From Ancylobacter rudongensis (GTDB lineage Bacteria > Pseudomonadota > Alphaproteobacteria > Rhizobiales > Xanthobacteraceae), in NCBI RefSeq assembly GCF_900100155.1, contig NZ_FMTP01000002.1, positions 434,001 through 498,000 of the forward strand: 64,000 nucleotides of DNA. Reading direction: 5' to 3'. Below, in pieces: positions 6,006 to 24,653 of the stretch (the stretch's first letter is position 1; every line of letters starts with the position of its first letter). The position numbers and the translations under genes were made by a program. The notes under the pieces were generated by a model. That model was given only the letters and a program-made list of their open reading frames with translations, was not told where the DNA came from and did no database searches.

Positions 6006-9000
6006 TCACCAGCTAACGCTAACACCGATGCGTCCTCCGATAGCGTGTCCCTGCTCGCTATCCACGCGCAGATCATAGTCCCCTGATGCGAACAGGCGCA
6101 CGGTTTCGGATATCGTCATCGAAGTGTCGAGGCCAAGCTGCACCCATGTGCCGCCAAGGCCTGAATCGAAGGAAGCCGCATTGCTACCGGAGAGATCGGC
6201 AAATGTGACCTCCGTGCCGTCGCCGAAAGCGTGCCACAGGCTGGCCCGTGCCGCGCCGGTCAGCCTCGTGCCGCTCTCCAGCATCCATGCATGGCTGATA
6301 CGGGCGCCGACGCGACCGAGAATATCGCTGGCCGCGTCGTAGTCGATCGAGCCGAAACTGTCGGTGCCACCCTCGAAGGATAGGCGCTGATAGATGAGCT
6401 GCGCCTGCGGCTCGATCGCCCAGCCGCCGCCAAGGTCGAACCGGTAGCCTGTCTCCAGCGAGGCGATCAGGCCGAAACCGTCCGTACTCAGTTTCTGCCC
6501 GAGGACTGAACTCGCATTTGCCTCGGCGAAAAAAGTGCCCTGGAGCACCGTGTCGATGTAGAGGCCGCCCTCCCGCGCATGCGTCCAGTAAGCGCCGAGC
6601 GAGTAAGCGTTCATCGACACCTTGCCGGCCGGACCGCCATAGACGGCATCGACGCTTCCGCGTGCCTCACCGGCACCGACATAGAAGCCGATGACATTCT
6701 GCACCGTTTCGCCTGGCTCCGAGACCGGAACGTCATATCCCGCCTGGAAGCCGGCAAGGTCGATGCTGTAGCTCGGGCCGTTGCTTAGGAAGCGATTGAG
6801 CTGGGTCGCGGGATTGCCGCCGCTGGAGCCTTGGCTGCCCGTCTCACCGAACAGGCGGGCCCAGCCCGAACCTGCGTGACCGTCAGGCTGGGCTGCTCGT
6901 GCGGCCGCGCGTTCGGCATAGGTACCAAGCATCGCCATGCTGTACTGCGAGGCAATCGCAGGGATGGCGGTATCGACGGCAACTTCCGGCCGCAGGTTCG
7001 GCAGCGCACCGGGCCCGGTGGCCCCCGCCTGAGTCGATCGCAGGAACCAGTCATCGGCCCCCGACGCGCCGCCGCGATAGAGGCCGAACTCGTAGGCGCC
7101 GCCAGCGACGCGACGACCAAGGGTGAAGGCGTCCGGATCGGTCTGGCCGCCATTGATCGTCTGGATCAGGCCGATGCCGTCGCCCGAGGTTGGGGCCACG
7201 GTGCCGTGCGACTGGACAATAATGCTCGTTTGACCCGTGGCCGTTCCGCCGTCGATGACGAGCCGGTCCGCAACCCCGGTGCCTGCGAAGGCGGCATTCA
7301 TGAGCAGCGTGCCGTTGACTCCCTGATAGTCTTCGACGGTGAGGCTCTGGAAGAGGGCCGGCGATGCGCCAGCCGGCGGCGCGAATGCGATTGTGCTGTT
7401 GTCGTTCGTCAGCTGGTCGACCTGAGAGTTCACGGCGTTTCCAGCGGCAGGAAGCAGCCAGGTGCTGCCGTTCTGGAGCGCGAGGCTGATGCTGGCATCG
7501 TTCGAGCGGGTCATGGCACCGATCACCTGCGCGTTCGAGGCGATGAACCGCAGGTCCGTGCCGGCCGCGACCACCGCCGTGCCGCTCACTGCGGCAAGGG
7601 AGCTGTCGCTCATGGAAAGGTAGGCGGTCCGGCTGGTCGAAGCGCCCTCGATCGATATGGCGGCAACCGCCGCTGCCGCCTCTCCAGAGGCGAGCACGCT
7701 CGTTCCACTCAGATCGACCTGCCCGCCTTCGCCGATCACGATCGCATGCGCCTCGGCGCCGTGGGTTGTCACCGCGCTCTCATTTAGCGCGACCGCCGCA
7801 CCGTCGCCCCATGCGAGAATGCCGACGCTGCCCGCCGCCTGCGTTTCGACCGTGAGGCGCGTGCCGAACAGCTGCGCCGAACCATCGCCACCAGTGACGC
7901 GCAGGCCGCTGCCGGCGCCGTTCAGACGGATGGAGCTGTCGACGAGGTCGACCGTGCCGTTCGGCTCGACCCAAACGCCGTCACCGCTGGTGAGGTTGAT
8001 GTCGACACCAACACCGCCGATAGCGGCCGGCGCCTCACCGCCCGCATGCAGGCCGGCAAGGGCGCTGCCGGTGATGTTCACACGGTTCAACACGGCGCCT
8101 GAGTTGTCGCGCGCATCAATGCCGGTGCCGCTGACCTCGTCGCCGGTCAGCACGATGTTCACGTCGGTAAGGACAAGCGAGGCGATCCCGGTCTCGGCAC
8201 GCAGGAACGCGCCGTCGCCGCCCGGCGACGCGGTGATGTCGCCGCCAAGGCCCAGCTCGACGCGTCCGCCGCTGCCGACGAAGATAGCGGGCACATAGTC
8301 CTGCATCGGCGCGAGTGCCACCCGCCCATCCGCGACCGCCGACCCGCCATTGGCAGCGTAGACGGCGGCGCGCGCACCGAAGGGTCCGCTCACCAGCCCG
8401 GTCCAGACTGTACCCGCTCCCACCACCGCGTTCGCGCCATCCGCCACCACCTGAATCTGGCCGGTCGGGGTCCAGCCGAGAATGGCCAGAAACTCCTTGA
8501 ACAGATGCGCCGGCGCATCGGGATCGTCAGGATTGCTGGAGTTGATGAGGATGGTGATCGTGCGGTCGTTTGCCCGGTCATACATGACGAGCGCCTCGAA
8601 CCCGAGGCCGTTGCCGGTATGGCCGATATAGCCGGAAATCTCGCCCGTGCCGAAGCCGTAGCTGTCATATTCGGGGCTTTGCGGATCGGTCTTGGTGGAG
8701 CCGAACGACTTCAACCGTTCGACGAAGTCACGCTTGCTCAGCAGCTCGCCGCTGCCAACCGCCTTCCCCCAGCGCTCGGCATCGGCGATGACGCCGACCA
8801 GCGCGCCCGAAGCGCCCGCACCGGTGGCGTTGAAGGCGGCGAGCGATTCCGGGCCGTTGCCGTCATCGAGGTCGATGTAGCCGACCGCGTTTGGCGTCGG
8901 CATCGAGCCGGCGCCCTGGTTGATCACCGAGCTCAGGCCAAGCGGGCCTGTCAGGCGGCGACTTACTTCGTCGGACCAGTCATTCCCGGTCGCGGCCGTG

Positions 9001-9623
9001 ATGACCTCGCCGAGTAGGATCGTGTTGCTGTTGGAATACTCGTAGGAGGCGCCGGGCGTGAACTGCAGCGGCTCGGCGAAGGCGAAGGCGAGCAGCTCGC
9101 GCGCCGTCCATGCCTTGCTCGGATCGACGCCGAACTGTTCGGCGAAGGCGGCTGAGCTTGTATAGTTGAACAGGCCGGATCGCATCTGTGCGAGCTGGCG
9201 GATCGTCATGACGTCGCCGCCGGGCACGCCGTCGACATAGTCGCCGACCGGATCATCCAGGCCAATACGCCCCTCTTCCGCCAGCTGCAGGATGACCGTG
9301 GTCACGAACGACTTGGTGATGCTGCGATAGCCGAAATAGGTGTCTGCGGTGGGTGCAACGCCGTTGGCGACATCTGCGAGGCCGGAATTGGACGTCCAGC
9401 GAATGTCGCCCTGCCGGATCGCGACCGAGGCTCCCGGGATTCGCTTTTCGATCAGGGCCTGATCGATGGCGGCCTGAAGCTGCGCCGCGGTGGTTGAATC
9501 GTCCCATGGCGCGCTGCCGACAGGGGCCTGCGCCAGCGCGATCGTGCCATGAGCGGAGAAGATCAGGAGAGCCGCAAGCCGGGAGAGGCGCCGGTTCTTC
9601 TTCACAGCCGAAATGTCGTTCAA
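6006..9623 (-). CDS. Autotransporter with a serine hydrolase (beta-lactamase-fold) passenger
   Basis: A 1205-residue type Va autotransporter. Residues 1-32 are a signal peptide with a basic N-region. Residues about 45-385 form a class C beta-lactamase/D-peptidase-fold enzyme with Ser101-x-x-Lys104 (SITK), Tyr196-Ser-Asn198 and His335-Thr-Gly337. Residues about 390-900 are a beta-rich stalk with polymorphic-toxin-like Ser/Gly/Asn repeats, and about 930-1205 form the outer-membrane barrel ending in SVSW with the terminal aromatic residue. The likely start is TTG at 9623, preceded by GGGGGCGGG; a GTG six codons later also gives a signal peptide. The enzyme should be displayed on, or shed from, the cell surface. 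All catalytic residues are intact. The gene downstream encodes a periplasmic enzyme of the same fold. Confidence 0.88.
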   Translation of the reverse strand: MNDISAVKKNRRLSRLAALLIFSAHGTIALAQAPVGSAPWDDSTTAAQLQAAIDQALIEKRIPGASVAIRQGDIRWTSNSGLADVANGVAPTADTYFGYRSITKSFVTTVILQLAEEGRIGLDDPVGDYVDGVPGGDVMTIRQLAQMRSGLFNYTSSAAFAEQFGVDPSKAWTARELLAFAFAEPLQFTPGASYEYSNSNTILLGEVITAATGNDWSDEVSRRLTGPLGLSSVINQGAGSMPTPNAVGYIDLDDGNGPESLAAFNATGAGASGALVGVIADAERWGKAVGSGELLSKRDFVERLKSFGSTKTDPQSPEYDSYGFGTGEISGYIGHTGNGLGFEALVMYDRANDRTITILINSSNPDDPDAPAHLFKEFLAILGWTPTGQIQVVADGANAVVGAGTVWTGLVSGPFGARAAVYAANGGSAVADGRVALAPMQDYVPAIFVGSGGRVELGLGGDITASPGGDGAFLRAETGIASLVLTDVNIVLTGDEVSGTGIDARDNSGAVLNRVNITGSALAGLHAGGEAPAAIGGVGVDINLTSGDGVWVEPNGTVDLVDSSIRLNGAGSGLRVTGGDGSAQLFGTRLTVETQAAGSVGILAWGDGAAVALNESAVTTHGAEAHAIVIGEGGQVDLSGTSVLASGEAAAAVAAISIEGASTSRTAYLSMSDSSLAAVSGTAVVAAGTDLRFIASNAQVIGAMTRSNDASISLALQNGSTWLLPAAGNAVNSQVDQLTNDNSTIAFAPPAGASPALFQSLTVEDYQGVNGTLLMNAAFAGTGVADRLVIDGGTATGQTSIIVQSHGTVAPTSGDGIGLIQTINGGQTDPDAFTLGRRVAGGAYEFGLYRGGASGADDWFLRSTQAGATGPGALPNLRPEVAVDTAIPAIASQYSMAMLGTYAERAAARAAQPDGHAGSGWARLFGETGSQGSSGGNPATQLNRFLSNGPSYSIDLAGFQAGYDVPVSEPGETVQNVIGFYVGAGEARGSVDAVYGGPAGKVSMNAYSLGAYWTHAREGGLYIDTVLQGTFFAEANASSVLGQKLSTDGFGLIASLETGYRFDLGGGWAIEPQAQLIYQRLSFEGGTDSFGSIDYDAASDILGRVGARISHAWMLESGTRLTGAARASLWHAFGDGTEVTFADLSGSNAASFDSGLGGTWVQLGLDTSMTISETVRLFASGDYDLRVDSEQGHAIGGRIGVSVSW

Positions 9624-10037
9624 TACCCGCCCCCGAGCGTTCGGGCACGGCAGCCCATCACAGGCGGCTCAGGGTATCGACCCACGATTGGGCGGCAATC
9701 GTCGGAGCGTCCCAAATCACGGCGCCGGGTCTCAGCGCTTGGGCAGTCAGCCCCCCCGACACGGATGCCGCGCCTCGCCGAGCCAGGGCCGCGGCCCGCC
9801 TTCTGTGAGCCAACGATCCGGCTACGCGTCTCAATATTCGTCCTGGTGTATCAGCTGGCCCGCCGAGGTAAAAATACCGTTGCGTCGCCGGCAGCGATGA
9901 TGCTTTCCAGTTGAAATGAGGATGCATCGCAGCGTGCCGTGAGCACTCTGCGTGGATCCGCGTGGAAATACATTGGCTGCCGGAATCCGCGCAGCTGAAC
10001 CCATGATCCATGCCTCGTAATGCTATGGAAGCTGCCG
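9624..10037. promoter_or_regulatory. Divergent intergenic region between two autotransporter genes
   Basis: About 410 bp separate the TTG start of the hydrolase autotransporter and the start of the large PATR autotransporter. It must hold both promoters. I see no coding frame with family resemblance, and no clear promoter hexamers or operator dyad. Base composition is GC-rich on the left and becomes more mixed toward the right-hand start. Confidence 0.45.
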
Positions 10038-13000
10038 ATGTCCCCGCTCCACAATCGCCGCCGCCCTCTGAACGCGAATGCGACGGCGCTTCTCGGCCAA
10101 ACGTTTCTATCCTGCAACTTTGGCCGCACGCTGCCCGCGCTGCTTCTGGCTCTGGGGCTGGGCGTAGTGGCGGCGCCGGCGCAGGCGGCGAATTTCAATG
10201 TCGCCAATGAGGCCCAGCTGGCCGACGCCGTCGCGAAGGCGGCCAATGGCGACACCATTACGTTTACGGCCGATATCGAGCTCAGCGCCAAGGGCAAGGC
10301 CGGCACCATCACGACCAATGTCACCATCAACGGCAATGGCCACAAGCTGCTCGGCAAGGCGGGGGCAAACGCCAACGGCCTCTATGTCCAGTCCGGCACG
10401 GTGACGATCCAGAATCTCGATCTGTCCGGCCTGACCACCAAGGGAACGAGTGGCGGAAATGGCGGCGGCGGCGGCGGCGGCGGGGCTGGGACGGGCGCCG
10501 GACTTTTTGTCGGAGCGGCAGCGAATGTGACCCTCGCCAACGTGGCCTTGCAGAATAACAGCGCCGTCGGCGGCAATGGCGGCGTTGGAGTCACGGAGTA
10601 TGGACGGACGACGGCACAGGGCGGTGGGGGCGGCGGCAGTGGCCCCAATGCAGGCAACGGACAGACATCCAGTGGCGGCGCCGTGGGGCATGGCGGCCCT
10701 ATCGGGGGCGGCGACGGCAATGGCGGGAATGGCCAGTGGGGTGCTGGCGGCGGCGGTAGTGGCAGTGTCGGAGCCGCAAAGGGCGGCAATGGCGGGTTCG
10801 GCGGCGGTGGCGGCGGCGGCCAGGACAACAATATCGGCACCGGAGGATTTCTGGGTGGAAACGGCGGCGCGGGCAGGGCTGCCGGAGGCACGAGCAGTAA
10901 CTGGTATAATGGCGGCGGCGGCGGCGGCGCCGGCATGGGCGGCGCTGTCTTCGTTCAGGATGGTGGGAAACTCTCCGTCACCGGAACGTTGACCATTATT
11001 GACAACAGCGTTGCCGGGGGAACCGGCGGCAGCAGCACAGCGGGAGCCGGAGGGAACGGCGCCGCCGCCGGTGCCGGCCTTTTCCTTGCCGGCAATGGCA
11101 CCCTTGGTCTCTCTTCCGTGGCCGGCGAGACGCAGACGATTTCCGACGCCATCACCGATCAGACCGGCGCTGGCGGCACCGGGGCGAATGCGGGCAGCTG
11201 GGGGCTGGTGAAGACCGGTGCAGGCACCCTCACCCTCACCGGCGCCAACAGCTACACCGGCGGCACGACGGTGAGCGGCGGCGTGCTGCGCGGCAATTCG
11301 ACAAGCCTGAAGGGTGGCATCGTCAACAATGCCAGCGTGGTGTTCGACCAGACTGCCGCCGGGATCTATGCCGGCAGCATGTCCGGCACCGGCGCGCTGA
11401 CCGTTACCGGGGGCAAGCTGACCCTGACCGGCGCCAACACCTATACGGGCCTCACTTCGGTGACCGGCAGCGGAACGCTCGACGTCACCGCCGCCAACAC
11501 GCTCGCGGCGGCGAGCACCGTCGCACTCGACAATGGCGCGCTGCTGATTGGCAGCGGGGTCGGCATCAGTAACGCCATCACGGTGACGAATCGCGGCGGC
11601 CTCGGCTCAAATGGCGGCATCGCGACGGTGAGCGGCGTCATCAGCGGCTCCGGGGCGCTGGACGTGAATGCCGGCACCGTTGCTTTGGCGGCCAACAACA
11701 CCTTCAGCGGCGGCCTGAACGTCACCGGCGGCGCGACGGCGCTTTTCACCGCCGATGCCAATCTCGGAGCCGCCGGCGGATCTGTCACCGTGACAGACGG
11801 CGGCATGGTCGGCGCGGCGGCGAATGCGGCGGCGAATTTCGAGACGAACCGCAACCTGACCGTCACCGGCACGGGGGGCATTTCCGGCGCGCAACACGCC
11901 GTGAATTGGAAGGGCGCCGTCGGCGGCGCCGGGACTCTCGTCGTCAGCGGTGCCAATGTCGTGGAACTCAGCGGGACCAACACCTATTCCGGCGGAACCT
12001 CGATCCAGGGTGGCGCACTGAAGGTCGATTCCGACGCACGGCTCGGCGACCTCGCGGGCACGCTGGCCTTTTCCAACAATGGCCGCCTGCTGGCATCCCA
12101 GTCCTTCACGACCGGACGTGACATCAATGTGGGAACGGGCGGAGGCGGGTTTGAGCTGGGTGCAGGGACGACCCTCGGCCTGAGCGGCACAATCACCGGC
12201 GGCGTCGTCAATCAGACGGGCCAGGGCACGCTCGTCGTCACCGGCGCGAACTCCAACGCCGGCTTCGCGAATTATGGCGGCACGCTTGAGGGCAGTTCCG
12301 CCACGCTCGGGCGGGCCATCCGGTTCGATAGCGATGTCTCCAACACCAATTCCCGCACCGTGGTCTTCGCGCAAGCCACGGACGGCACGTTCACCGGTAA
12401 TATCGGGAGCACCGGCTCCACCCCGGGTCTTGGCAATGTCGTCAAGACCGGCGCCGGCAAGCTCACCCTGATGGGCGAGAGCAACTTCAAGTCCCAGGTG
12501 GCCGGTACGGCGGAATTCCAGGTGCAGGAAGGCACCTTGCAGGGCAACAGCAAGAGCCTCGCCGGCAATATCGAGAACAATGCGGCGCTGATCTTCGATC
12601 AGTCGTTCGATGGCACCTATGCCGGCGCGATCACAGGCACCGGGTCTGTGACCGTCAGTGGCGCCGGCAAGCTCACTCTTGACGCTGCCAGCACGATTGC
12701 CGGCGCCACCTCCGTCACCGGCGGCGGCATCCTCGTCACCACGACCGCCAGCAATTTCGGCGCCTCCTCGACCCTCGGCCTCAACGGCGGCACGCTGATG
12801 CTTGGCACGGGAGCGACCGCGTTCAACAAGGCGGTCACGGTCACCGGCATTGGCGGCATCGCTGCAACGGGCGGCACCACCCCGAACAACGCCGTCGCGA
12901 CGATGAGCGGCGTCATCAGCGGCGCCGGCCAGCTGGACGTCAACAGCAACACCGTCATTCTGGCGGCGAACAACACGTTCACCGGCGGCCTGCGCGTCAT

Positions 13001-15713
13001 CGGCAGCAATGCCCAGGCGCTCTTCACCACCGACGCCAATCTCGGAGCGGCCGGTCAGGCGATCACGCTACAGAATGGCGGCGTCGTCGGAACAACGGCT
13101 GATGCCGCGCCCAATCTCACCATGACCCGCAACCTCAACATCATCGGCTCGGGGGGGCTCTCCTCCGCGCTCCATCCGCTGGTCTATGCCGGCACCATCA
13201 GCGGCAACGGCACCTTTATTAAGTCCGGCGGCGGTATCGTGAACCTCACCGGTACCAATAACGCAACGGGCGGCACGGCGGTGCGCGCCGGCACGCTGCA
13301 GGTTGCCTCCGACGATAAGCTGGGTGCGGCGGGCGCAGGGCTGGAGCTTTCCGAGAACGGGCACCTCTGGGCGACCGAGAGCTTCACCACCTCGCGGGAC
13401 ATCACCCTCGGCGGAGTCGCGGGCGGTGGCTTCCAGCTCGACAGCGGCACCACGCTCACCCTCACGGGCGCGATCAGCGGCACCACACTCAGCCTGCTGG
13501 GCACCGGCACGCTCGTACTCAACGGCACCAGCACCTATGCCGGCATCACCAACAGCGGCGGCACCATCATAGGCAACACCGACACGCTGAAGGGCGACAT
13601 TATATTCGACTACAATGCAGGCAATACCAACGCCCGCTCGATCGTCTTCCAGCAAGACGCAGTCTACAGTATATTTGCGGGCAACATCACAGGCCTCGGC
13701 ACCGAGACAGGGTACGGCACCGTTGTGAAGACCGGCGCGGGCACCCTCGTCCTGACCGGCGAGACCAAGTTCGCGGGGCTGGCCGACGGCTACGCCTTCG
13801 ATGTGCAGCAAGGTTATCTTGAGGGTTCAAGCAAGAATCTCGTCGGCAAGATCCATATCGCCGAAGGAGCGGAGCTGACCTTCAAGGAGATTGTCGACGG
13901 CACCTATGCAGGCGGTCTTGAAGGCGAAGGCCAGCTCGCCAAGAACGGCGAGGGGACGCTCATCTTCAATGGCATCAACAGCGCCCTTGGCGGGACCACG
14001 ATCAATACCGGCACCCTCGTCCTGAACGGCACCCTGAACACGGCCGGCGAAGGCACCACTGTCTGGGGCACCCTTGCCCTGAACGGCACCCTGAACAGCG
14101 CCGGCGACGGCACTAACATCGAATATGACGGCCTCCTCTCCGTGAATGGCACGCTGAACGGCGACGTGTCTGTCAACAAGGGTGGCACGCTTGAGGGAAG
14201 CAGCCGGATCAACGGCAAGGTCACCAATAAGGGTGGCAAGATCAACCCCGGCAACTCCATCGGCCACATCACGATCAACGGCGATTTCGAATTCGACGAT
14301 GGCGAGATGGTGGTGGAGGTGAATGCCGAAGGCGAGAGCGACCGCGTCATCGTCGTCGGCGCCGGCCATACGGCGACCATCACCGCCGGCACCCTCAGCG
14401 TCATAATGGAGCCCGGCGACTACACGCCCGGCACCATCTATACCATCGTCACCGCCGAGGGCGGGGGCACGGCGCATTTCGACTCCATCACCGGCGGCAC
14501 CGCTTTTCTTTCGCCCGAATTGTTTTCGGACCCGCAGAACCTCTACCTCACCCTCGATTTCGCAGCTGACGCCTTCCGGTCCGCCGGTGTCACGGCCAAC
14601 CAGCAGGCAGTCGGCAGCATCCTCGATCTGGTGAATGCCAGCGGCAGTGCTCCAGCCCTCGTCAACGCGCTCGCCAACGTGCCTGTTGGCTCCGGCGCCG
14701 CCGCGCTGCAGCAGCTCAGCGGCCAGCCCTATGCCGACTTCGCCACGGTGAACATGCGCGGCAGCCAGCTGTTCATGAACACGGTGGGCCGCCAGATGGC
14801 GAATGATCGCGGCGCGGGCCTTGGCGGCGGGCAGAGCGTCGCTCTCGATGCGCCGGGCCTCGACGGCCAGTCACGCTTCAGCGCCTGGGTCAGCGCCATC
14901 GGCACCAAGGGCAGCGTCGACGGCAATGGCAACGCCGCCGATCTCTCCTATTCGCTGGGCGGCACCGCTTTCGGCATCGGCTATCGGGTCGATCCGCGCG
15001 TCCAGATCGGCATCGCCGGCGCCTATGTCGGCGGCTCGCAGTCGGTCGACGGCTTCATGGGCGACGGCAACACGGAGGCGGGCAGCGTCGCCCTGCACGG
15101 CTCCTTCGCGGAAGGCCCGCTCTATGTCGACGGTCTGCTCGGCTATGCCTATGCCAGCAATGATCTGGAGCGCAAGATCGCGGTACCGGGCGTCTTTGGC
15201 ATCGCCAATGGCGCCTCATCCTCCAACCAGTTCCTCGGCCAGATCGAGACCGGCTACCGCTTCCCCATCGACGCCAGCTCCACCAGCACGATCACGCCGT
15301 TCGGCCGTCTGCAGGTGGTGAGCGTCAATCAGGGCGGGTTCACCGAAACCGGCTTCAGCGATTTCAATCTCACCGCGAGCGGGCAGACCCTGACCTCGGT
15401 ACGCACCACGCTGGGCGCCGATTTCAGCACCCGGCTCGACGTCGGAGGCACGGCGGTGGAACTCAGCACCCGGCTCGGCTGGGTGCACGAGTTCGGTGAC
15501 ACCACCCGCCCATTCACCGCGGCCTTCACCGCCGCGCCCTGGGCGTCGTTCACCGTGTACGGAGCGCCGGAGCCGCGCGACAGCGCCCTCATCGGTGTCG
15601 GCGCGCAGGCCCAAATCCTGGAAAATACGACGCTGTTCGCCAGCTACGACGCGGAACTGGGCGGCGGCAGCGACAACCATCAGCTCTGGGGCGGCATCCG
15701 CTTCTCGTGGTGA
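10038..15713 (+). CDS. Giant autotransporter with PATR (autotransporter-associated beta-strand) repeats
   Basis: A protein of about 1890 residues. I prefer the ATG at 10038, six codons inside the longest frame, because GGAAG lies six bases upstream. The N-terminus has a long basic leader and a signal core ending APAQA-AN. A very glycine-rich segment follows (roughly residues 140-310). Then come about a dozen PATR-type units of the pattern KTGAGTLTLTGANSYTGGTT, which build a beta helix. Residues about 1605-1890 form the beta barrel, beginning near RFSAWVSAIG and ending GIRFSW. Such proteins serve as adhesins or surface structures. No catalytic passenger domain is visible. Its gene faces the hydrolase autotransporter, and their barrels are only family-level similar. 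Confidence 0.9.
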   Translation: MSPLHNRRRPLNANATALLGQTFLSCNFGRTLPALLLALGLGVVAAPAQAANFNVANEAQLADAVAKAANGDTITFTADIELSAKGKAGTITTNVTINGNGHKLLGKAGANANGLYVQSGTVTIQNLDLSGLTTKGTSGGNGGGGGGGGAGTGAGLFVGAAANVTLANVALQNNSAVGGNGGVGVTEYGRTTAQGGGGGGSGPNAGNGQTSSGGAVGHGGPIGGGDGNGGNGQWGAGGGGSGSVGAAKGGNGGFGGGGGGGQDNNIGTGGFLGGNGGAGRAAGGTSSNWYNGGGGGGAGMGGAVFVQDGGKLSVTGTLTIIDNSVAGGTGGSSTAGAGGNGAAAGAGLFLAGNGTLGLSSVAGETQTISDAITDQTGAGGTGANAGSWGLVKTGAGTLTLTGANSYTGGTTVSGGVLRGNSTSLKGGIVNNASVVFDQTAAGIYAGSMSGTGALTVTGGKLTLTGANTYTGLTSVTGSGTLDVTAANTLAAASTVALDNGALLIGSGVGISNAITVTNRGGLGSNGGIATVSGVISGSGALDVNAGTVALAANNTFSGGLNVTGGATALFTADANLGAAGGSVTVTDGGMVGAAANAAANFETNRNLTVTGTGGISGAQHAVNWKGAVGGAGTLVVSGANVVELSGTNTYSGGTSIQGGALKVDSDARLGDLAGTLAFSNNGRLLASQSFTTGRDINVGTGGGGFELGAGTTLGLSGTITGGVVNQTGQGTLVVTGANSNAGFANYGGTLEGSSATLGRAIRFDSDVSNTNSRTVVFAQATDGTFTGNIGSTGSTPGLGNVVKTGAGKLTLMGESNFKSQVAGTAEFQVQEGTLQGNSKSLAGNIENNAALIFDQSFDGTYAGAITGTGSVTVSGAGKLTLDAASTIAGATSVTGGGILVTTTASNFGASSTLGLNGGTLMLGTGATAFNKAVTVTGIGGIAATGGTTPNNAVATMSGVISGAGQLDVNSNTVILAANNTFTGGLRVIGSNAQALFTTDANLGAAGQAITLQNGGVVGTTADAAPNLTMTRNLNIIGSGGLSSALHPLVYAGTISGNGTFIKSGGGIVNLTGTNNATGGTAVRAGTLQVASDDKLGAAGAGLELSENGHLWATESFTTSRDITLGGVAGGGFQLDSGTTLTLTGAISGTTLSLLGTGTLVLNGTSTYAGITNSGGTIIGNTDTLKGDIIFDYNAGNTNARSIVFQQDAVYSIFAGNITGLGTETGYGTVVKTGAGTLVLTGETKFAGLADGYAFDVQQGYLEGSSKNLVGKIHIAEGAELTFKEIVDGTYAGGLEGEGQLAKNGEGTLIFNGINSALGGTTINTGTLVLNGTLNTAGEGTTVWGTLALNGTLNSAGDGTNIEYDGLLSVNGTLNGDVSVNKGGTLEGSSRINGKVTNKGGKINPGNSIGHITINGDFEFDDGEMVVEVNAEGESDRVIVVGAGHTATITAGTLSVIMEPGDYTPGTIYTIVTAEGGGTAHFDSITGGTAFLSPELFSDPQNLYLTLDFAADAFRSAGVTANQQAVGSILDLVNASGSAPALVNALANVPVGSGAAALQQLSGQPYADFATVNMRGSQLFMNTVGRQMANDRGAGLGGGQSVALDAPGLDGQSRFSAWVSAIGTKGSVDGNGNAADLSYSLGGTAFGIGYRVDPRVQIGIAGAYVGGSQSVDGFMGDGNTEAGSVALHGSFAEGPLYVDGLLGYAYASNDLERKIAVPGVFGIANGASSSNQFLGQIETGYRFPIDASSTSTITPFGRLQVVSVNQGGFTETGFSDFNLTASGQTLTSVRTTLGADFSTRLDVGGTAVELSTRLGWVHEFGDTTRPFTAAFTAAPWASFTVYGAPEPRDSALIGVGAQAQILENTTLFASYDAELGGGSDNHQLWGGIRFSW
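10455..11085 (+). repeat. Low-complexity Gly-rich coding region
   Basis: Runs of GGC/GGN codons (for example eight consecutive Gly codons near 10465) encode a segment of up to half glycine, with Asn, Ala and Ser. It lies between the signal peptide and the first PATR unit of the large autotransporter. Such stretches are prone to slippage and length variation. Confidence 0.8.
11200..14230 (+). repeat. Diverged tandem PATR-repeat coding array
   Basis: Units of roughly 90-330 bp recur with the core GGCGCCAACAnCTACACCGG-like sequence and conserved KTGAGxLTLTG coding. Two long units (about 11220-12100 and 12450-13330) are similar over their whole length, including the GDL/AAN spacers, which suggests an internal duplication of about 1.2 kb followed by drift. 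A third, shorter array at 13980-14160 repeats LNGTLN-type modules three times. Confidence 0.7.
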
Positions 15714-18912: not shown

Positions 18913-20811
18913 TCACGCATCCGTGCCGAACGCCTCTTCTTCCGGCTGCCGCGACAGCGTCCAGGCGACGATCAGGCTCTGCACGGCGAATACCGTGACC
19001 CAGGCCGGACTGCCGCCGAACAGGTCGGCCGGCGTGGCACGGACGAAACGATGGGCCTGATCCGGCTGCGGAAGCAATCGCAGCCCCGCTTGAATGGCAT
19101 CCATGTCGAAAATGTCCGCCAGCCGCGGCGACGAGCTGGCGCGCAGCCTCGCCGCCAGGGCCAGAAGATCCACCCTGTGGTCCGCATAGCGCACGAAGCG
19201 GTCGTCGAACAAACCGACCTTGTGGCGCGCAAGCCGCACCCGTTCGGGCAAGATGCCCCGCATGGCGCGGCGGAAGGGTTGCCGTGCCTGCCCATCGGCG
19301 AGGAACAGGTGAACCGGCAAGGACAGCACGAAATCAACAATCCGGCGGTCCAGCAGGGGAAAGCTGGCCGCGAGCCCGTGGCGGGCCGCCAGAAGAGCGT
19401 AATAGGTGCAGCGCGAGGGAATGTGGTGGTCGGCAAAAGCCCGCACACGGTCGGCCGGCTTGTTGCTGTGGAGAACGGGCGGCATGCGCCGGCTCAATAC
19501 CTCTTGCCGGATCGACGCCGCCAGATAGCGGATCCCCCCGTGCACCGGGTCCGCTATCCCGACGTGCCGGCGCCGACGCAGGCGCAGGCCGGCCGGCAGA
19601 AGGGGATTGATCAGCCGTCCACGGATGGCGCGCGGAAGCGAAACGCCATCGCTCTTCGCGCGTGCCGCCAGTTCGCGCGCCAGGGTTGGCAGGCGTCCCG
19701 TCCGCAGGAGCGCGACGTAGAGGTTGGCGCCGTTATAGCTCGCCCCCTCGTCACCGCCCACGCCACTGAGAAGCCGGTCGGCGCCGAAGGCGGCCGCGGC
19801 AGCCATCATCTCGTCATCCGCACCGCCGATCACGCTTCCCGGCCAGTCGGCATCCTCGGCCCGCCCTGGCATCGGCAGCATGTCGTCGACCTGCCGATGG
19901 ACGATGTCGGGTTCCTGCGCAAGCACGGCGGCGATCATCGGCCGCTCGTCCTGCTCCGGAGGGCCCAGTGCCATGGGCGCGAGGCTGCTGAGGGCGAGCA
20001 CCTTGCCCGCGTGGTGGCGGGCGTGCCGTGCGGCCAGCACGGTGATGGCGGAACTGTCCAGTCCGCCGGTCAGATGGCAGGCCACCGGACCCGCCGCCGG
20101 CATGCGGGCGGCAACCGCCTCCCGCACCAGGCGTTGCAGCGTCTCCGCCGCCTGTTCAGGCGTCCCGCGCCAGCGCCCCACCCGCGCGGGGCTGGGGCGA
20201 TAGGCCCGGTGCGGACGGGGCGGCTCATCGTCCCCTAGCCGGACACACAGGCTGTGTCCGGCCTCAAGATAGGCGATCTCGGCGAAGCCCGTGGCGGGTC
20301 CCGTGAAATAGGTCTGCACAACCTTGGCCGCCACCGCGGCCTTGTCGATGGAGGCGGGAGCGAGGCCGGCGCCGTGCAGTCCCTTGGGCAGGCTTGCGAA
20401 GGCGAACCAGCGGCCCGGCTGGAACGTCCAGGCCAGCGGCCTGACGCCGATGTAATCGCGTCCCAGCCACAGCTCCTCGGCCTCGCGACGCCAGAGCGCC
20501 ACGGCGAAATCGCCATCGAGATGGTCGGGAAAATCAGCGCCGTGACGGCCAATCGCAGCCAGTAGCGCCGCCTCTTGCGTCTCGTCCGGGCGATCCAGCC
20601 GAAGGTCGGAGGCGATCACCCAGCCATCCCGTTCCACCACTCCAGCGCTGCCGCCGCCGAAATCGATAACGGCCAGCCCCAGCGATCGCTCCAGCCGGCA
20701 CGACACCGCCGGCGTCAGGCCGGGGCCGGTCATCGCGGCCGCCATCCGGTGCAGGACGGCGTCCGTCGCCGCCGCACCGTCGAGGCGAAGCATGCCGCAG
20801 ATGAGGCGCAT
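18913..20811 (-). CDS. Asparagine synthetase-like lasso peptide macrolactam synthetase
   Basis: A 632-residue AsnB-type protein. The N-terminal half is a glutaminase-like fold. Its would-be nucleophile is Cys5 (MRLICG), not Cys2, so it cannot become the N-terminal residue by Met removal; this is usual for McjC-type cyclases that do not use glutamine. The PP-loop is TGGLDSS (residues 248-254), and the synthetase part contains SGVGGDE. It should adenylate the Glu8 side chain of the precursor core and close the ring with Gly1. The start is two bases after the stop of the PqqD-like gene, so they are co-translated. It is the last gene of the leftward operon kinase-sulfotransferase-PqqD-cyclase. 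An ordinary asparagine synthetase is unlikely given the context. Confidence 0.86.
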   Translation of the reverse strand: MRLICGMLRLDGAAATDAVLHRMAAAMTGPGLTPAVSCRLERSLGLAVIDFGGGSAGVVERDGWVIASDLRLDRPDETQEAALLAAIGRHGADFPDHLDGDFAVALWRREAEELWLGRDYIGVRPLAWTFQPGRWFAFASLPKGLHGAGLAPASIDKAAVAAKVVQTYFTGPATGFAEIAYLEAGHSLCVRLGDDEPPRPHRAYRPSPARVGRWRGTPEQAAETLQRLVREAVAARMPAAGPVACHLTGGLDSSAITVLAARHARHHAGKVLALSSLAPMALGPPEQDERPMIAAVLAQEPDIVHRQVDDMLPMPGRAEDADWPGSVIGGADDEMMAAAAAFGADRLLSGVGGDEGASYNGANLYVALLRTGRLPTLARELAARAKSDGVSLPRAIRGRLINPLLPAGLRLRRRRHVGIADPVHGGIRYLAASIRQEVLSRRMPPVLHSNKPADRVRAFADHHIPSRCTYYALLAARHGLAASFPLLDRRIVDFVLSLPVHLFLADGQARQPFRRAMRGILPERVRLARHKVGLFDDRFVRYADHRVDLLALAARLRASSSPRLADIFDMDAIQAGLRLLPQPDQAHRFVRATPADLFGGSPAWVTVFAVQSLIVAWTLSRQPEEEAFGTDA

Positions 20812-20813
20812 GC

Positions 20814-21080
20814 TCAGGCGTCCATCAGCAGGCCGCGCGCGCGCAGGTTCGCCAGGAACCCGGCGACCTCACGCTGGCAGTCCTCCGCCGAGACATCGAA
20901 CTCGGCTACAAGACGGGCCACCAGCCCGGCCTCGTCAATCGGATCGGCCAGCAAGTCCCAGATATGCGCAGCCACCGGATTGAGGCCGTGGTAGCGGCCG
21001 GTCGCGACACTCAGCAGCAAGGTGGTCTCTTCCATCGGCGCCGCGAAGACATCGCCATTTCGGCGCAACAGCCGTCCCAT
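20814..21080 (-). CDS. PqqD-like RiPP recognition element (lasso B1)
   Basis: An 88-residue PqqD-family protein. It starts with the strand pattern of the RiPP recognition element (DVFAAPMEETTLLLSVATGR, YHGLNPVAAHIWDLL) and ends with helices for the leader-binding winged-helix fold (FDVSAEDCQREVAGFLANL). In lasso systems this B1 domain binds the precursor leader and delivers it to the peptidase and cyclase. Here it is a separate small gene immediately before the cyclase. The partner B2 peptidase, often fused to or next to B1, is not encoded nearby. I am confident of the fold; the role follows from context. Confidence 0.88.
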   Translation of the reverse strand: MGRLLRRNGDVFAAPMEETTLLLSVATGRYHGLNPVAAHIWDLLADPIDEAGLVARLVAEFDVSAEDCQREVAGFLANLRARGLLMDA

Positions 21081-21136
21081 GTTTTCCCCCTCTTAGTCGA
21101 TACGGTTCGGTCCGCCTTCGAGCCGTGTCACAGTGG

Positions 21137-21973
21137 TCAACCTTCCGGACGGTAGCCGAGCCGCGCCATGACCGGGGCGAAACGGTCCTCGATGGTACGA
21201 ACCTGCGAAGCCGTCAGCACGTCCCGCCATTCCCCCACCCGGCCGGAGCGGAAAAAGCGGACCTGTCCCGGAAGGCTCTCCCGGAAGCCCTTGGTGGCCT
21301 CCTGCCGCTGCAGTTCATCAAGGCTGGAATGGGCGACGGCCCGCTGGATTTCCGCTTCCGTCACCCGCCCGCCGAGGAACTCGACGATGCCCCCCAGTGT
21401 TCCCGCCGTATCCTCGCGCAAGTCCTCGTACCGCACGACTTTCGTGCGCACGAGGGTTTGGCCGGTCCATTCCAGAACGTGGCCGGCCCAGTCGCCGACG
21501 CGCGAACGAAGCTGCACTCGGCTGCTGAGGCGGAAATCGGGGTCGTTCATCGCCGCGATGGTGGCTTCCAGCGACAGGCTGGCGTGATGATGCAGCGAAA
21601 CAGCCACATCGCGCGGGTCGCGCACCATGTAGAGGGCGCCCAACGCCCGCATTCCCAGGATGGGGCGCCCGGACCGGTCCGTGAAGCGGTCATGCGTCTT
21701 GCAGAAAAACGGCACCGTCAACCGGCCGGCCACGAAGTCGCATTGCAAGGGGCGAAGCCGCTCGATGTCCTGCTCGTCCAGCAAATCGGGCTCGACCAGC
21801 AGGTCGTCGGCGAAGCGCCAGCGCCCCAACAGCGTGAACGGTTCGGCAAGATTGTTGATGTCCGCCGGCTGGGCCTTGCCCGCGGCCAGATTGGCCAGAA
21901 GCACACGCACCCAGGTGTTGCCGGATTTGGGATAGGAGGCGAGCCAGACCAGCCCTGGGGGAAAGAACGCCAT
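21137..21973 (-). CDS. PAPS-dependent sulfotransferase in the lasso locus
   Basis: A 278-residue sulfotransferase. The 5'-phosphosulfate loop is YPKSGNTW (residues 14-21), the 3'-phosphate motif is MVRDPRDVAVS (116-126), and the C-terminal RSGRVGEWRD matches the PAPS-binding GxxGxW region. It lies three bases downstream of the kinase-like gene and 56 bp before the PqqD-like gene, all co-directional. It probably transfers a sulfo group from PAPS to the RiPP product, perhaps on Ser or Thr, since the core has no Tyr. A role on another small molecule is possible. Confidence 0.85.
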   Translation of the reverse strand: MAFFPPGLVWLASYPKSGNTWVRVLLANLAAGKAQPADINNLAEPFTLLGRWRFADDLLVEPDLLDEQDIERLRPLQCDFVAGRLTVPFFCKTHDRFTDRSGRPILGMRALGALYMVRDPRDVAVSLHHHASLSLEATIAAMNDPDFRLSSRVQLRSRVGDWAGHVLEWTGQTLVRTKVVRYEDLREDTAGTLGGIVEFLGGRVTEAEIQRAVAHSSLDELQRQEATKGFRESLPGQVRFFRSGRVGEWRDVLTASQVRTIEDRFAPVMARLGYRPEG

Positions 21974-21976
21974 CGT

Positions 21977-22924
21977 CTATCCCGAGCCCAGCCGGTCCCA
22001 GTGGCTGCGAAGCTGGGTCACGGTCTCCTGAAGGCGGGCAAGTTCGCGCGGCCGACGCAGAGAGAAGACCGGGATGCGGGAAAGGAGGGCCGCCGTCCGC
22101 AGCGCAAGCATGCCGTGCCCGCAATAAGCCTGTGCGAGTTGCCGACGATAGGTGTGATGAAGCAGAGACTGGGCCGCTTCAAGGGTTGGCAGGCGGTCGA
22201 TGCCGGGCGGAAAAGCCGTGTCAGCATCCGCCAGCATGTAGACGGCCGCCAGCGGCACGGATTCCGGCGCGTTGTCGGGCATCGGTGGAGCGACATGGAA
22301 CTTCTCCAGCCGCCGCCGCACCCGCGCGCCGACCGCGTCGGAGAGCCCGACCTGGTCGATACTGTCGGCATAGAGGCGCAGCGCCCGGCCATCCGAATGG
22401 ATCATCGGAGGCCGGTCGCCGTTCTCTTCCACTGCGCAGACATCGTCCGCCAGGATGTCGCAGCCCGACCGCATCAGGGCCGCGGCAAGCGTCGACTTCC
22501 CGGCCCCGCTCTGTCCGCAGAAAAGGAAGGCACGCCCGTCGCGGACCACTGCCGATGCATGCAGCAGCAAACCTTTGCGCTGGTATAAAATTGCGCCGAG
22601 AGCCGTGCCGGTAACGAAGACGAGAATGTCGTCCAGGGAGGTGACCGGGGCCGGGCAAACGGTAATGCGCTGCCCGTCTTCACACAGGAAACGACCGATA
22701 TCCGGCAGATCCAGCAGGAAAGCCTGGTCATTTGCCATCCAGGTGGCCCCCCGGTGGGTGGGGTGATCCAGGCAAGACGGCACATGGCCGACATCAATCA
22801 CCACATCGACCGGCCCTTCCCCTGCCGGATCGACCTCCATCCTCGCGGGCAGGGCGATCTCGGAAGACACGCGCAGTCCCGATAAGCGGTAGTGGTAACG
22901 AGGCGCCGACGAACTCGCAGTCAT
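21977..22924 (-). CDS. HPr kinase-like peptide kinase in the lasso locus
   Basis: A protein of 315 residues with the C-terminal fold of HPr kinase/phosphorylase. The Walker A loop GQSGAGKS lies at 137-144, preceded by LLLHASAVV at about 120, and followed by ILADDVCAV with the acidic metal ligands. The N-terminal 100 residues start with YRLSGLRVSS, the usual beginning of these peptide-kinase relatives, so I place the start at the ATG at 22924 rather than 39 codons upstream. There is no PTS neighbour. In paeninodin-type lasso clusters a homologue phosphorylates the C-terminal Ser of the precursor. The core here also ends in Ser, which fits that role. Confidence 0.85.
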   Translation of the reverse strand: MTASSSAPRYHYRLSGLRVSSEIALPARMEVDPAGEGPVDVVIDVGHVPSCLDHPTHRGATWMANDQAFLLDLPDIGRFLCEDGQRITVCPAPVTSLDDILVFVTGTALGAILYQRKGLLLHASAVVRDGRAFLFCGQSGAGKSTLAAALMRSGCDILADDVCAVEENGDRPPMIHSDGRALRLYADSIDQVGLSDAVGARVRRRLEKFHVAPPMPDNAPESVPLAAVYMLADADTAFPPGIDRLPTLEAAQSLLHHTYRRQLAQAYCGHGMLALRTAALLSRIPVFSLRRPRELARLQETVTQLRSHWDRLGSG

Positions 22925-23236
22925 CCGGCCTGATTGCCTGCATCGTAAGATATTGGCAAGAGATTCCACCCAATCTCGCCAGTCATATTTATTATCTTTC
23001 GTAGGGAAAGGTACTATATTATCCCCTTCGGCGAAATCCAAAAGGCCGTGTCAGGGCCAGTCGAAGCGGGACCATTTCTAACATTAATTACAATATATTA
23101 CGGGCATTCAACGAGTCGGACGGAAGATAACATTTAATCGGTGGCTGTATCCCCGCACCGCGCCCATCTCGTTTGATGATGTGGCGTTTCACTGCTATCG
23201 TCGGCATGTAAAATGCTATGAAGTGAAGGTCATCCG
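22925..23236. promoter_or_regulatory. AT-rich divergent promoter region of the lasso locus
   Basis: About 310 bp lie between the kinase start and the precursor start. The central 150 bp are clearly richer in A+T than the rest of the window, with tracts such as CATATTTATTATC and AATTACAATATATT. It must drive the modification operon leftward and the precursor rightward. I see no large dyad. Confidence 0.6.
23187..23214 (+). promoter_or_regulatory. Candidate sigma-70 promoter of the precursor gene
   Basis: TTTCAC (23187-23192) and TAAAAT (23209-23214) are separated by 16 bp. The -10 hexamer ends 22 bp before the ATG at 23237, which is preceded by GAAGTGAAGG as RBS. The pair fits a housekeeping promoter reasonably well, but the leader would be very short. 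Confidence 0.4.
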
Positions 23237-23404
23237 ATGGAAATCGATATCGCTACGGCTCAGGCACACGCGACAGCCAAAGAAGCCACCGGGCGCCGGG
23301 CATGGCACCCGCCGGTGATCGAGGATGCGGACATCAGTGCGCTGACCAACGGAGGCGGCACATCCGGCGTGGAAGGCACTAGCTTTCTGAAGCCGGGATC
23401 CTGA
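23237..23404 (+). CDS. Lasso peptide precursor (leader 38 aa, predicted core 17 aa)
   Basis: A 55-residue peptide with RBS GAAGTGAAGG about seven bases before the ATG. The leader contains W23-H-P-P26-V-I28, which matches the aromatic-x-x-Pro-x-Leu/Ile leader motif read by B1 proteins. Thr37 is at the -2 position before the predicted cut after Asn38, as in almost all lasso leaders. The predicted core is GGGTSGVEGTSFLKPGS: Gly1 and Glu8 give the eight-residue ring of the type in microcin J25. The tail has one bulky residue, Phe at core position 12, as a possible plug, and ends in Ser, the residue that HPr-kinase-like enzymes modify in related clusters. The core has two Thr and several Ser residues as sulfation candidates. 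The gene diverges from the operon encoding kinase, sulfotransferase, PqqD-like protein and cyclase. Confidence 0.83.
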   Translation: MEIDIATAQAHATAKEATGRRAWHPPVIEDADISALTNGGGTSGVEGTSFLKPGS

Positions 23405-23714
23405 AGCCATCGGCGCCGCCGGGAGCGTTCGACTTCCGGGCGCCTCTCGGCCGCCGCCTCTGTCGACTCTGAACCGATATTGGCACGGCCTGCCCTGGAC
23501 CGGGCGGGGCTGGACGTCCGGCAACGACCCGGTTTTAGCCGATCTGCGGCAGTGGGCCGCTGAGGGTTGGCTCCAGTCGCGATCACCCCTCCTGCGCCCC
23601 GGCCTCCGACTGGCCGACCGCCTGATCTGGCCGCTCGCGGCTTTCGCCCGCAGCCGTGCCTTTGCCCGCACTTTCGAGGGCGGTGCGTCGCCGTCGGTTT
23701 TTCACGACAGCCTC
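23391..23714 (+). other. Coding-like open frame upstream of the ATP-grasp ATG, without a normal start
   Basis: In the frame of the ATP-grasp gene, sequence is open from 23391 (after a TGA at 23388-23390) to the ATG at 23715. From about 23460 it reads like protein (NRYWHGLPWTGRGW, then ADLRQWAAEGWLQ). No ATG, GTG or TTG occurs in this frame there. Possible explanations are a CTG or ATC start, a sequencing or real frameshift near 23470, or translation starting at 23715 with this part lost. Confidence 0.5.
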
Positions 23715-24653
23715 ATGACGGGGGCCGATCCCCTGGAGGCGTGGGCCTGGCGGGCTTTGTACGGAACGCGCCATCCTCTTCCGGCGCGTGCCTCCGCCCT
23801 GTTGATGGCTCGTCTGGGTGAGAGCGCCGCGCACCGCTTGCTGGCCGACAAGCTCGCCACGGCGGCGGTTCTCGGCCCGGTCGGCATCCCCTTTCCCGCG
23901 CTGCGCGGACTCTGCCGCAAGGGCGAGGTGCTGCGCCCTCTCGCCGAGATCGATGAGGGCGGGGACCTGTTCGTCAAGCCTCGCCACGGACGCGGCGGGG
24001 GAGGCACCTTCTCGCTGACACGTACCGGCGGCACCTGGCAGATGAATGGCCGCTCGGTGACCGCCTCCGCCCTGCTTGACCGCCTCAGCCGCGCAGCGGA
24101 GCAGGACGATCTGCTGGTGCAGGAGCGGCTGGTCGCTGCGCCGGATCTGGCGGATCTTGTGGTCCATGGCCGCCCCCCCGTGCTGCGGGTGGTTACGGCT
24201 CGCTATCCCGGTGCGGCGCCATTCCTGCACTCCGCTCTGCTTTCAATGGGCGTTCCAAGTTCTCACCCCGCCCACTTCCTGCGCGGGGCCGTTTACGCTG
24301 CTGTCGATCCAGCCACCGGCCAGCTCGCGGACGGGCTTTCGCTCGGCGAACCCGGGGAACGCATGACGACGTTGCCTTGGAACGGCGCCCCCCTGACCGG
24401 CCGCCCGCTGGTCGCCTTGGATGGCGCCGTGTCGATCGCCCTGCGCGCCATGGCCGCGCTGCCTCCGCTGCCGGTTGTGCACTGGGATTTCATCCCAGCC
24501 GTCTCCGGCCCGGTTCTTCTGGAGGGCAATACGAGCGGAAACTGGATCCTCGCCTGCTTGCCCGGCCTATTCGGCCTTGAGGCCTGCCCGCTCACACCCA
24601 TGCTGGCGTCCTGGCGCGCAGCTCCGCCCACGGGACACCCGCGGAGTGCGTGA
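23715..24653 (+). CDS. ATP-grasp protein (sugar-transfer associated type), start uncertain
   Basis: At least 312 residues of an ATP-grasp fold. LADKLATAAVLGPVGIPFP is the typical entry segment of the sugar-transfer-associated ATP-grasp family; GDLFVKPRHGRGGGG is the nucleotide-binding lysine/glycine loop; DLLVQERL follows; and HWDFIPAV... then LLEGNTSGNW carry the metal-binding acidic/Asn pair. Protein-like sequence continues upstream without a normal start codon. It is co-directional with the lasso precursor, 310 bp after it, and probably shares its transcript. ATP-grasp enzymes join acids to amines or activate carboxylates; a role in modifying the peptide or in making a donor for it is an inference. 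Confidence 0.75.
   Translation: MTGADPLEAWAWRALYGTRHPLPARASALLMARLGESAAHRLLADKLATAAVLGPVGIPFPALRGLCRKGEVLRPLAEIDEGGDLFVKPRHGRGGGGTFSLTRTGGTWQMNGRSVTASALLDRLSRAAEQDDLLVQERLVAAPDLADLVVHGRPPVLRVVTARYPGAAPFLHSALLSMGVPSSHPAHFLRGAVYAAVDPATGQLADGLSLGEPGERMTTLPWNGAPLTGRPLVALDGAVSIALRAMAALPPLPVVHWDFIPAVSGPVLLEGNTSGNWILACLPGLFGLEACPLTPMLASWRAAPPTGHPRSA

Follow-up and report, generated by a model that had tools for sequence, protein, structure and literature searches.

A lasso-type gene cluster encoding kinase, sulfotransferase and ATP-grasp proteins in Ancylobacter rudongensis belongs to a conserved yet scattered bacterial family

In a stretch of 64,000 nucleotides from Ancylobacter rudongensis (the window, whose numbering is used throughout), the genes between positions 18913 and 24653 form a lasso-type cluster that also encodes a kinase, a sulfotransferase and an ATP-grasp protein. 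Sequence comparisons confirmed it as a real cluster of this type and placed it in a conserved yet scattered bacterial family; gene content, conservation, synteny and motifs were observed directly. The open reading frames (ORFs), their strands and the precursor gene lie where a preliminary description of this DNA had put them, and its proposal of a lasso-type locus with these three enzymes is borne out by Pfam and NCBIfam families and by 11 further loci (L-numbers designate the loci compared, and G000 the host's own genome). That description spoke of the expected cyclase and B1 protein plus two tailoring enzymes; the cyclase and the B1 protein are indeed present, whereas the accessory enzymes number three.

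Four of the genes are read from the reverse strand. The lasso-type macrolactam cyclase (C protein, asparagine-synthetase-like; 18913..20811) matched Asn_synthase PF00733 at 3.1e-29 in the Pfam search, and its best NCBIfam model was that of the lasso cyclase, NF033535 (1.3e-49, 169 bits against a cut-off of 525). Beside it lies the B1 protein (20814..21080; PF05402, 1.5e-18), a leader-binding protein of the PqqD/RiPP recognition element type (RiPP, ribosomally synthesized and post-translationally modified peptide). The closest NCBIfam model of B1 is the lasso B1 model NF033536 (60 bits, cut-off 80), and its solved relatives are lasso B1 proteins (9x90, 5.8e-11; TbiB1, 8.7e-7; TfuB1, 5.7e-5). 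The third gene encodes a sulfotransferase of the 3'-phosphoadenosine 5'-phosphosulfate (PAPS) type (21137..21973; Sulfotransfer_1 PF00685, 4.9e-27), with Teg12 and Teg14 as nearest solved relatives and with the stretches YPKSGNTW and FFRxGxxxxWR, which we take to be those that bind PAPS. The fourth encodes an HprK-like kinase (21977..22924) whose frame in a longer form is open up to TTG 23041. Five of seven homologues begin to align at residues 33-49 of the long form, and the other two at residues 7 and 11, so that from these alignments the start may be ATG 22924 instead of TTG 23041. The Hpr_kinase_C match of this protein (1.2e-4) was below the Pfam cut-off, and against PDB sequences it gave only weak P-loop matches (best 0.052); the motif H..GQSGAGKS..DD, comprising the His, the P-loop GKS and the Asp-Asp pair, is intact in the window. 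An HPr-related "HprK_rel_A/PqqD" system was also considered, given the weak matches of the kinase to TIGR04352 (43 of 200 bits) and of B1 to TIGR04353 (28 of 35 bits), and was set aside because the cyclase, the precursor and the solved B1 relatives indicate a lasso system.

A cyclase scan of genome contigs returned seven loci with 53-81% identity, belonging to a metagenome-assembled genome (MAG) of Sphingomonas sp. 32-66-10 (L032), a Ferrovibrio MAG (L033), Falsiroseomonas algicola (L034), Sphingomonas Root720 (L035), Azospirillum griseum (L036), Novosphingobium hassiacum (L037) and N. subterraneum (L038). Scanning the class with the ATP-grasp protein gave matches in 5 of 385 genomes, the host included, the other four providing L076-L079; within the host family only the host itself matched (1/292). 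A plasmid search produced one cyclase match at 36% identity and none for the ATP-grasp protein. A match of 90% identity over 5.7 kb to an Ancylobacter polymorphus plasmid hints at a placement of the host near Ancylobacter; no small-subunit rRNA gene was found in the host genome. The kinase, sulfotransferase, B1 and cyclase genes occur together in all 12 loci (the window and 11 others), and a precursor gene accompanies them in 11 (10 of the 11 besides the window), L032 being a 4.5-kb contig that ends before any precursor. The ATP-grasp gene lies inside the cluster in 10 of the 12; the L036 genome has a match on a different contig, with one stop within it, and none was found in the L032 MAG. A tree of 33 kinases placed the 12 kinases of the window type on one side of a single branch (support 100/99), which was present in 200/200 bootstrap trees; L032 was counted there as an ATP-grasp type by assumption, its MAG having yielded no such gene. 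The named members belong to the Azospirillaceae, Rhodospirillaceae, Roseomonadaceae and Sphingomonadaceae. One of these loci, L076:1-16054 (G620), packs into 16 kb three cyclase ORFs, of which one is truncated where the locus ends, as well as two genes for the leader peptidase B2 and two kinase-sulfotransferase-B1 sets.

The lasso precursor, of 55 residues, is encoded on the forward strand at 23237..23404, stop codon included; it matched no Pfam or NCBIfam family, and in 10 other loci a homologue of it adjoins the same genes. Its leader contains the motif WHPPVI, from W-16 to I-11 (23303..23320), which conservation marks as the likely B1-binding site, and its core, GGGTSGVEGTSFLKPGS (23351..23401), has conserved G1, G3-T-S-G6, E8 and K14-x-G-S17. 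The precursor set comprises 12 sequences from 11 loci, since L035 contributes two (the second designated L035b) and L032 none; column and codon counts refer to the 11 gap-free ones, L036 having a core two residues longer. All 12 share Thr-2, Gly1, Gly3-Thr4-Ser5-Gly6, Glu8 and the terminal Lys-x-Gly-Ser. Among the 11 gap-free precursors the leader positions W-16, P-13, D-9, A-8, D-7 and T-2 and the core positions G1, G3, T4, S5, G6, E8, G9, F12, L13, K14, G16 and S17 are invariant, and positions 2, 7, 10, 11 and 15 of the core vary. The L036 precursor retains W-16, P-13, T-2, G1, G3-T-S-G6, E8 and a KPGS end, and has Val at -7 and Thr at 9 (no D-7 or G9). Comparing the 17 core codons between every two of the 11 gap-free precursors gave 393 synonymous and 198 non-synonymous differences in total, from which we conclude that the core is under purifying selection. 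Thr-2, Gly1 and Glu8, the lasso features named in the preliminary description, are thus present in 12/12 precursors, and related precursors keeping these residues, whose absence was to have counted against the proposal, were recovered from 11 loci.

By analogy with characterised relatives, B1 would bind the leader through W(-16)xxPxI and the cyclase would join Gly1 to Glu8 around the tail. Threading is unreadable from sequence, and the cyclase score is far below the lasso cut-off; an unthreaded Gly1-Glu8 macrolactam, or another RiPP, would be compatible with both. We regard this as very improbable, for the lasso models are the closest NCBIfam matches of both cyclase and B1, the solved relatives of B1 are lasso proteins, and T-2, G1 and E8 match lasso precursors.

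The precursor also bears on the sites of the kinase and the sulfotransferase. At positions 10-11, L035b has PA and L078 has IP; hydroxyls there are not conserved, which leaves T4, S5 and S17 as the invariant ones. As described in the accessible parts of the cited papers, phosphorylation of a terminal Ser is an activity of characterised lasso kinases (PMC8498205), PadeK, ThcoK and SyanK act on the C-terminal Ser (PMC8498205, PMC10368454), and such kinases carry the motif H..G.SGAGKS..DD, as does that of the window (PMC10368454). The terminal residue is Ser in 12/12 precursors. The window kinase would thus be expected, from its characterised relatives, to phosphorylate the Ser17 hydroxyl on the linear precursor, and the sulfotransferase would most likely sulfate one of the two remaining invariant hydroxyls, Thr4 or Ser5. 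The two sites could instead be swapped, with the kinase acting on Thr4 or Ser5 of the ring and the sulfotransferase on Ser17: T4 and S5 equal S17 in invariance, and BsfK was reported to phosphorylate Ser3 of its lasso core (PMC10368454, in the part available). BsfA, however, ends in Asp, PadeK, ThcoK and SyanK target the C-terminal Ser in the same partial sources (PMC8498205, PMC10368454), and precursor candidates of other kinase clusters end in Ser too, although these were partly filtered for that residue; we consider the swap unlikely.

The kinase family extends beyond these loci, with matches in 32 of 296 host-family genomes. A sulfotransferase gene lies near the kinase gene in 22 of the 30 kinase loci whose surrounding DNA was examined (L002-L031, window included), so that the adjacency of the two is common in the host family; the pairing had been thought unusual, a view that these counts do not uphold. 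The precursor candidates of other kinase clusters have an aromatic-xx-Pro motif, a terminal Ser and different cores (again from partly Ser-filtered scans). In the short loci L003-L011, L013, L026, L057 and L058 the precursor scan gave no candidate; with longer flanks, a scan that kept only ORFs ending in Ser gave candidates in L106-L108 and a further, doubtful candidate in L109. L106-L108, from the host family, are kinase-sulfotransferase-B1-B2 clusters, and their candidates, from the same Ser-filtered scan, share a W-xx-P leader and the terminal Ser and have unrelated cores.

The ATP-grasp protein (23460..24653, forward strand) is the least usual of the three accessory enzymes. It matched ATPgrasp_ST PF14397 at 5.9e-25 (88.5 bits, curated cut-off 31.4), and its invariant stretches include KPR, VLR, HWD and LEGN. 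The listed ATG at 23715, taken earlier as the start, is the first canonical one and does not agree with the conservation: the frame is open from 23391 and conserved in homologues from about 23470, some 80 codons upstream, with no in-frame ATG, GTG or TTG in the conserved stretch before 23715. CTG 23460 or CTG 23469 is a possible start as judged from this conservation; the conserved frame of L035 likewise has no canonical start, and elsewhere the gene starts with ATG (L033, L034 and L038) or GTG (L037). An AlphaFold model (mean predicted local distance difference test score, pLDDT, 70) gave Foldseek matches that include Ddl, RimK, LysX and DcsG, and the best 50 rows of the structure comparison had Z 11.7-13.8, 199-246 aligned residues, a root-mean-square deviation of 3.0-5.3 Å and at most 21% identity. 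The modelled fold is of the ATP-grasp ligase type, the match being one at superfamily level, as the top row was pyruvate carboxylase. Against PDB sequences the best value was 0.014, to a designed protein, and in the open-licence literature we found no paper on the function of PF14397.

ATP-grasp ligases join a carboxylate to an amine or the like. Glu8, the sole acidic residue in 12/12 cores, is needed for the lasso ring, which leaves the C-terminus as the free carboxylate; the invariant amine of the core is Lys14. What the enzyme does to the peptide is a guess: it probably works at the B2 stage, as it is fused to B2 in two relatives, and it would form an amide or ester bond, either with the C-terminal carboxylate or with Lys14. 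It might also close a second ring, from Lys14 or a hydroxyl to the carboxylate, giving a lasso/graspetide hybrid. This would suit the modelled ligase-type fold, the fusion to B2 in L037 and L038 and the fact that graspetide ligases are ATP-grasp enzymes (PMC12291112, as far as accessible). With Glu8 serving the lasso ring, however, only the C-terminal carboxylate remains, and the family is PF14397, no graspetide-ligase model being among the Pfam or NCBIfam matches; we find a second ring rather improbable. A graspetide proper was rejected, as none of the 12 cores has a second acidic residue free for a side-chain ester or amide.

The preliminary description overlooked that a B2 leader peptidase is missing, none being encoded in the 64-kb window. 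The host genome contains a single PF13471 (B2) gene, an orphan on another contig (G000:C9:83664-84161) with no lasso gene in the surrounding 19.5 kb. Of 30 genomes in the genus, nine have an orthologue, and they are precisely the nine with a match to a related kinase (Fisher 7e-8, kinship ignored), and in G234 the B2 match adjoins the kinase operon. Among the 11 loci whose flanks could be tested, two (L037 and L038, both Novosphingobium) have B2 as a fusion with the ATP-grasp protein, one (L076) has it directly downstream of the ATP-grasp protein, and two have it beside the cyclase (L034 and, convergent, L036); the flanks examined held no B2 in the remaining six (the window, L033, L035, L077, L078 and L079). 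Three of these six genomes (the host's, G335 and G464) have one PF13471 gene each, with no lasso neighbours in the DNA examined, and each of the remaining three has two or three such genes, some within other lasso-type clusters. From this distribution we favour over a loss that one orphan B2 may act in trans on the window precursor, which it would cut after Thr(-2)-Asn(-1).

A loss would instead make the cluster partial or decaying, with B2 and the ATP-grasp start gone and no mature lasso in the host. The missing B2 and the missing canonical start would agree with this, as would the right border of the cluster: from about 24.8 to 28.7 kb the genes (LysR, glutathione S-transferase, enoyl-CoA hydratase and AhpC/TSA) match two congeners, and nothing on the lasso side matches the 19 kb examined from each of them, a pattern that fits an acquired locus. 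We give decay little credence, since all frames are open, the motifs of all three accessory enzymes are intact, L035 shares the lack of a canonical start, and five other loci have no B2 in the flanks examined and yet a B2 elsewhere in the genome.

Together, these results make it probable, in our judgement, that the window holds a lasso cluster of a distinct subfamily, in which the kinase would act on Ser17, the sulfotransferase on Thr4 or Ser5, B2 in trans and the ATP-grasp protein at the C-terminus or Lys14. Several observations weigh against this model. The lasso-specific NCBIfam models for cyclase and B1 score below their cut-offs, B2 is absent from the window and no transporter was seen at the locus. 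Strictly speaking, B2 co-occurs with the other, L055-type kinase cluster of the genus, because the other eight genomes lack the ATP-grasp protein of the window, and two of the nine B2 matches (G234 and G219) cross a stop codon. BsfK, in the part of its report available, phosphorylates ring Ser3 and not the terminal residue (PMC10368454). The conserved His of the kinase is Gln in L078:10485-11480 and L079:10540-11538, from the same genus, which implies that the kinase may be inactive in some members, the precursor there still ending in Ser. Finally, a model with a pLDDT of 70 gives a fold that tells little about the substrate. A bolder version, which we hold tentatively and with less than even confidence, is a lasso modified three-fold, by phosphate at Ser17, sulfate at Thr4 or Ser5 and an ATP-grasp amide at the C-terminus or Lys14, the ligase travelling as a B2 fusion in some hosts and one chromosomal B2 serving several clusters in trans in others.

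The closest known systems, those of paeninodin (PadeK), ThcoK and SyanK of Sphingobium yanoikuyae, share with the window a split B1/B2, the cyclase, an HprK-like kinase, a Ser-ended precursor and an aromatic-xx-Pro leader motif, according to the accessible parts of their reports (PMC8498205, PMC9266682, PMC5067487). The window differs from them in gene order, in the added sulfotransferase and ATP-grasp genes, in having no B2 in the locus and in that no ATP-binding cassette (ABC) transporter was seen beside the cluster. Firmicutes lasso clusters with a sulfotransferase or nucleotidyltransferase, and pseudomycoidin, likewise combine a kinase with a further tailoring enzyme, and the nucleotidyltransferase is sometimes fused to B2, in parallel to the ATP-grasp-B2 fusion of L037 and L038 (PMC8498205, in part); they belong to another phylum, and in the available text no ATP-grasp is mentioned and the core is unrelated as far as seen. 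Since a putative sulfotransferase gene was already noted there for some of these Firmicutes clusters (PMC8498205), the pairing of lasso and sulfotransferase is itself not new. The Bradymonas BsfA/BsfK/B1/B2 system shares the phosphorylated lasso precursor type, the kinase motif and a W/Y-xx-P leader motif, and differs by Ile at -2, Asp8 and ring Ser3 phosphorylation from the Thr-2, Glu8 and terminal Ser of the window (PMC10368454, partial text). Graspetides have an ATP-grasp ligase in a RiPP cluster in common with the window, which differs by its PF14397 family and single acidic core residue; D-Ala-D-Ala ligase, RimK, LysX and DcsG share the ATP-grasp fold at 21% identity or less in the best 50 rows. 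No sulfated and no ATP-grasp-modified lasso was found in the literature, a search of open-licence papers that is weak evidence of absence. The near-invariant core and the ready enzyme set offer a way to learn how a sulfotransferase and an ATP-grasp protein of the PF14397 family act on a lasso precursor, and the cluster is a clean case for asking whether one lasso leader peptidase serves several clusters in trans.

The host genome contains two further loci of this kind. L055:9118-13347 (G000:C7, about 955,600-959,850) has a second B1-kinase-sulfotransferase operon with a divergent cyclase, and its precursor candidate (L055:13189-13347, reverse strand) ends in Ser without the TSG/FLK core; a small-ORF conservation test around it was swamped by overlapping frames. 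The third lasso-type locus, L056:5803-11266 (G000:C2, a 12.1-kb contig), has genes for a kinase, B1 and a cyclase, along with three ORFs that resemble precursors and end in Ser, and no PF13471 gene lies beside it. To the left of the cluster in the window, a 1205-aa ORF (6006-9623, reverse strand) has by eye a serine-hydrolase/beta-lactamase-like N-terminus, a passenger and a barrel-like C-terminus, and a 1897-aa autotransporter with PF03797 and PATR repeats is encoded at 10020-15713 on the forward strand.

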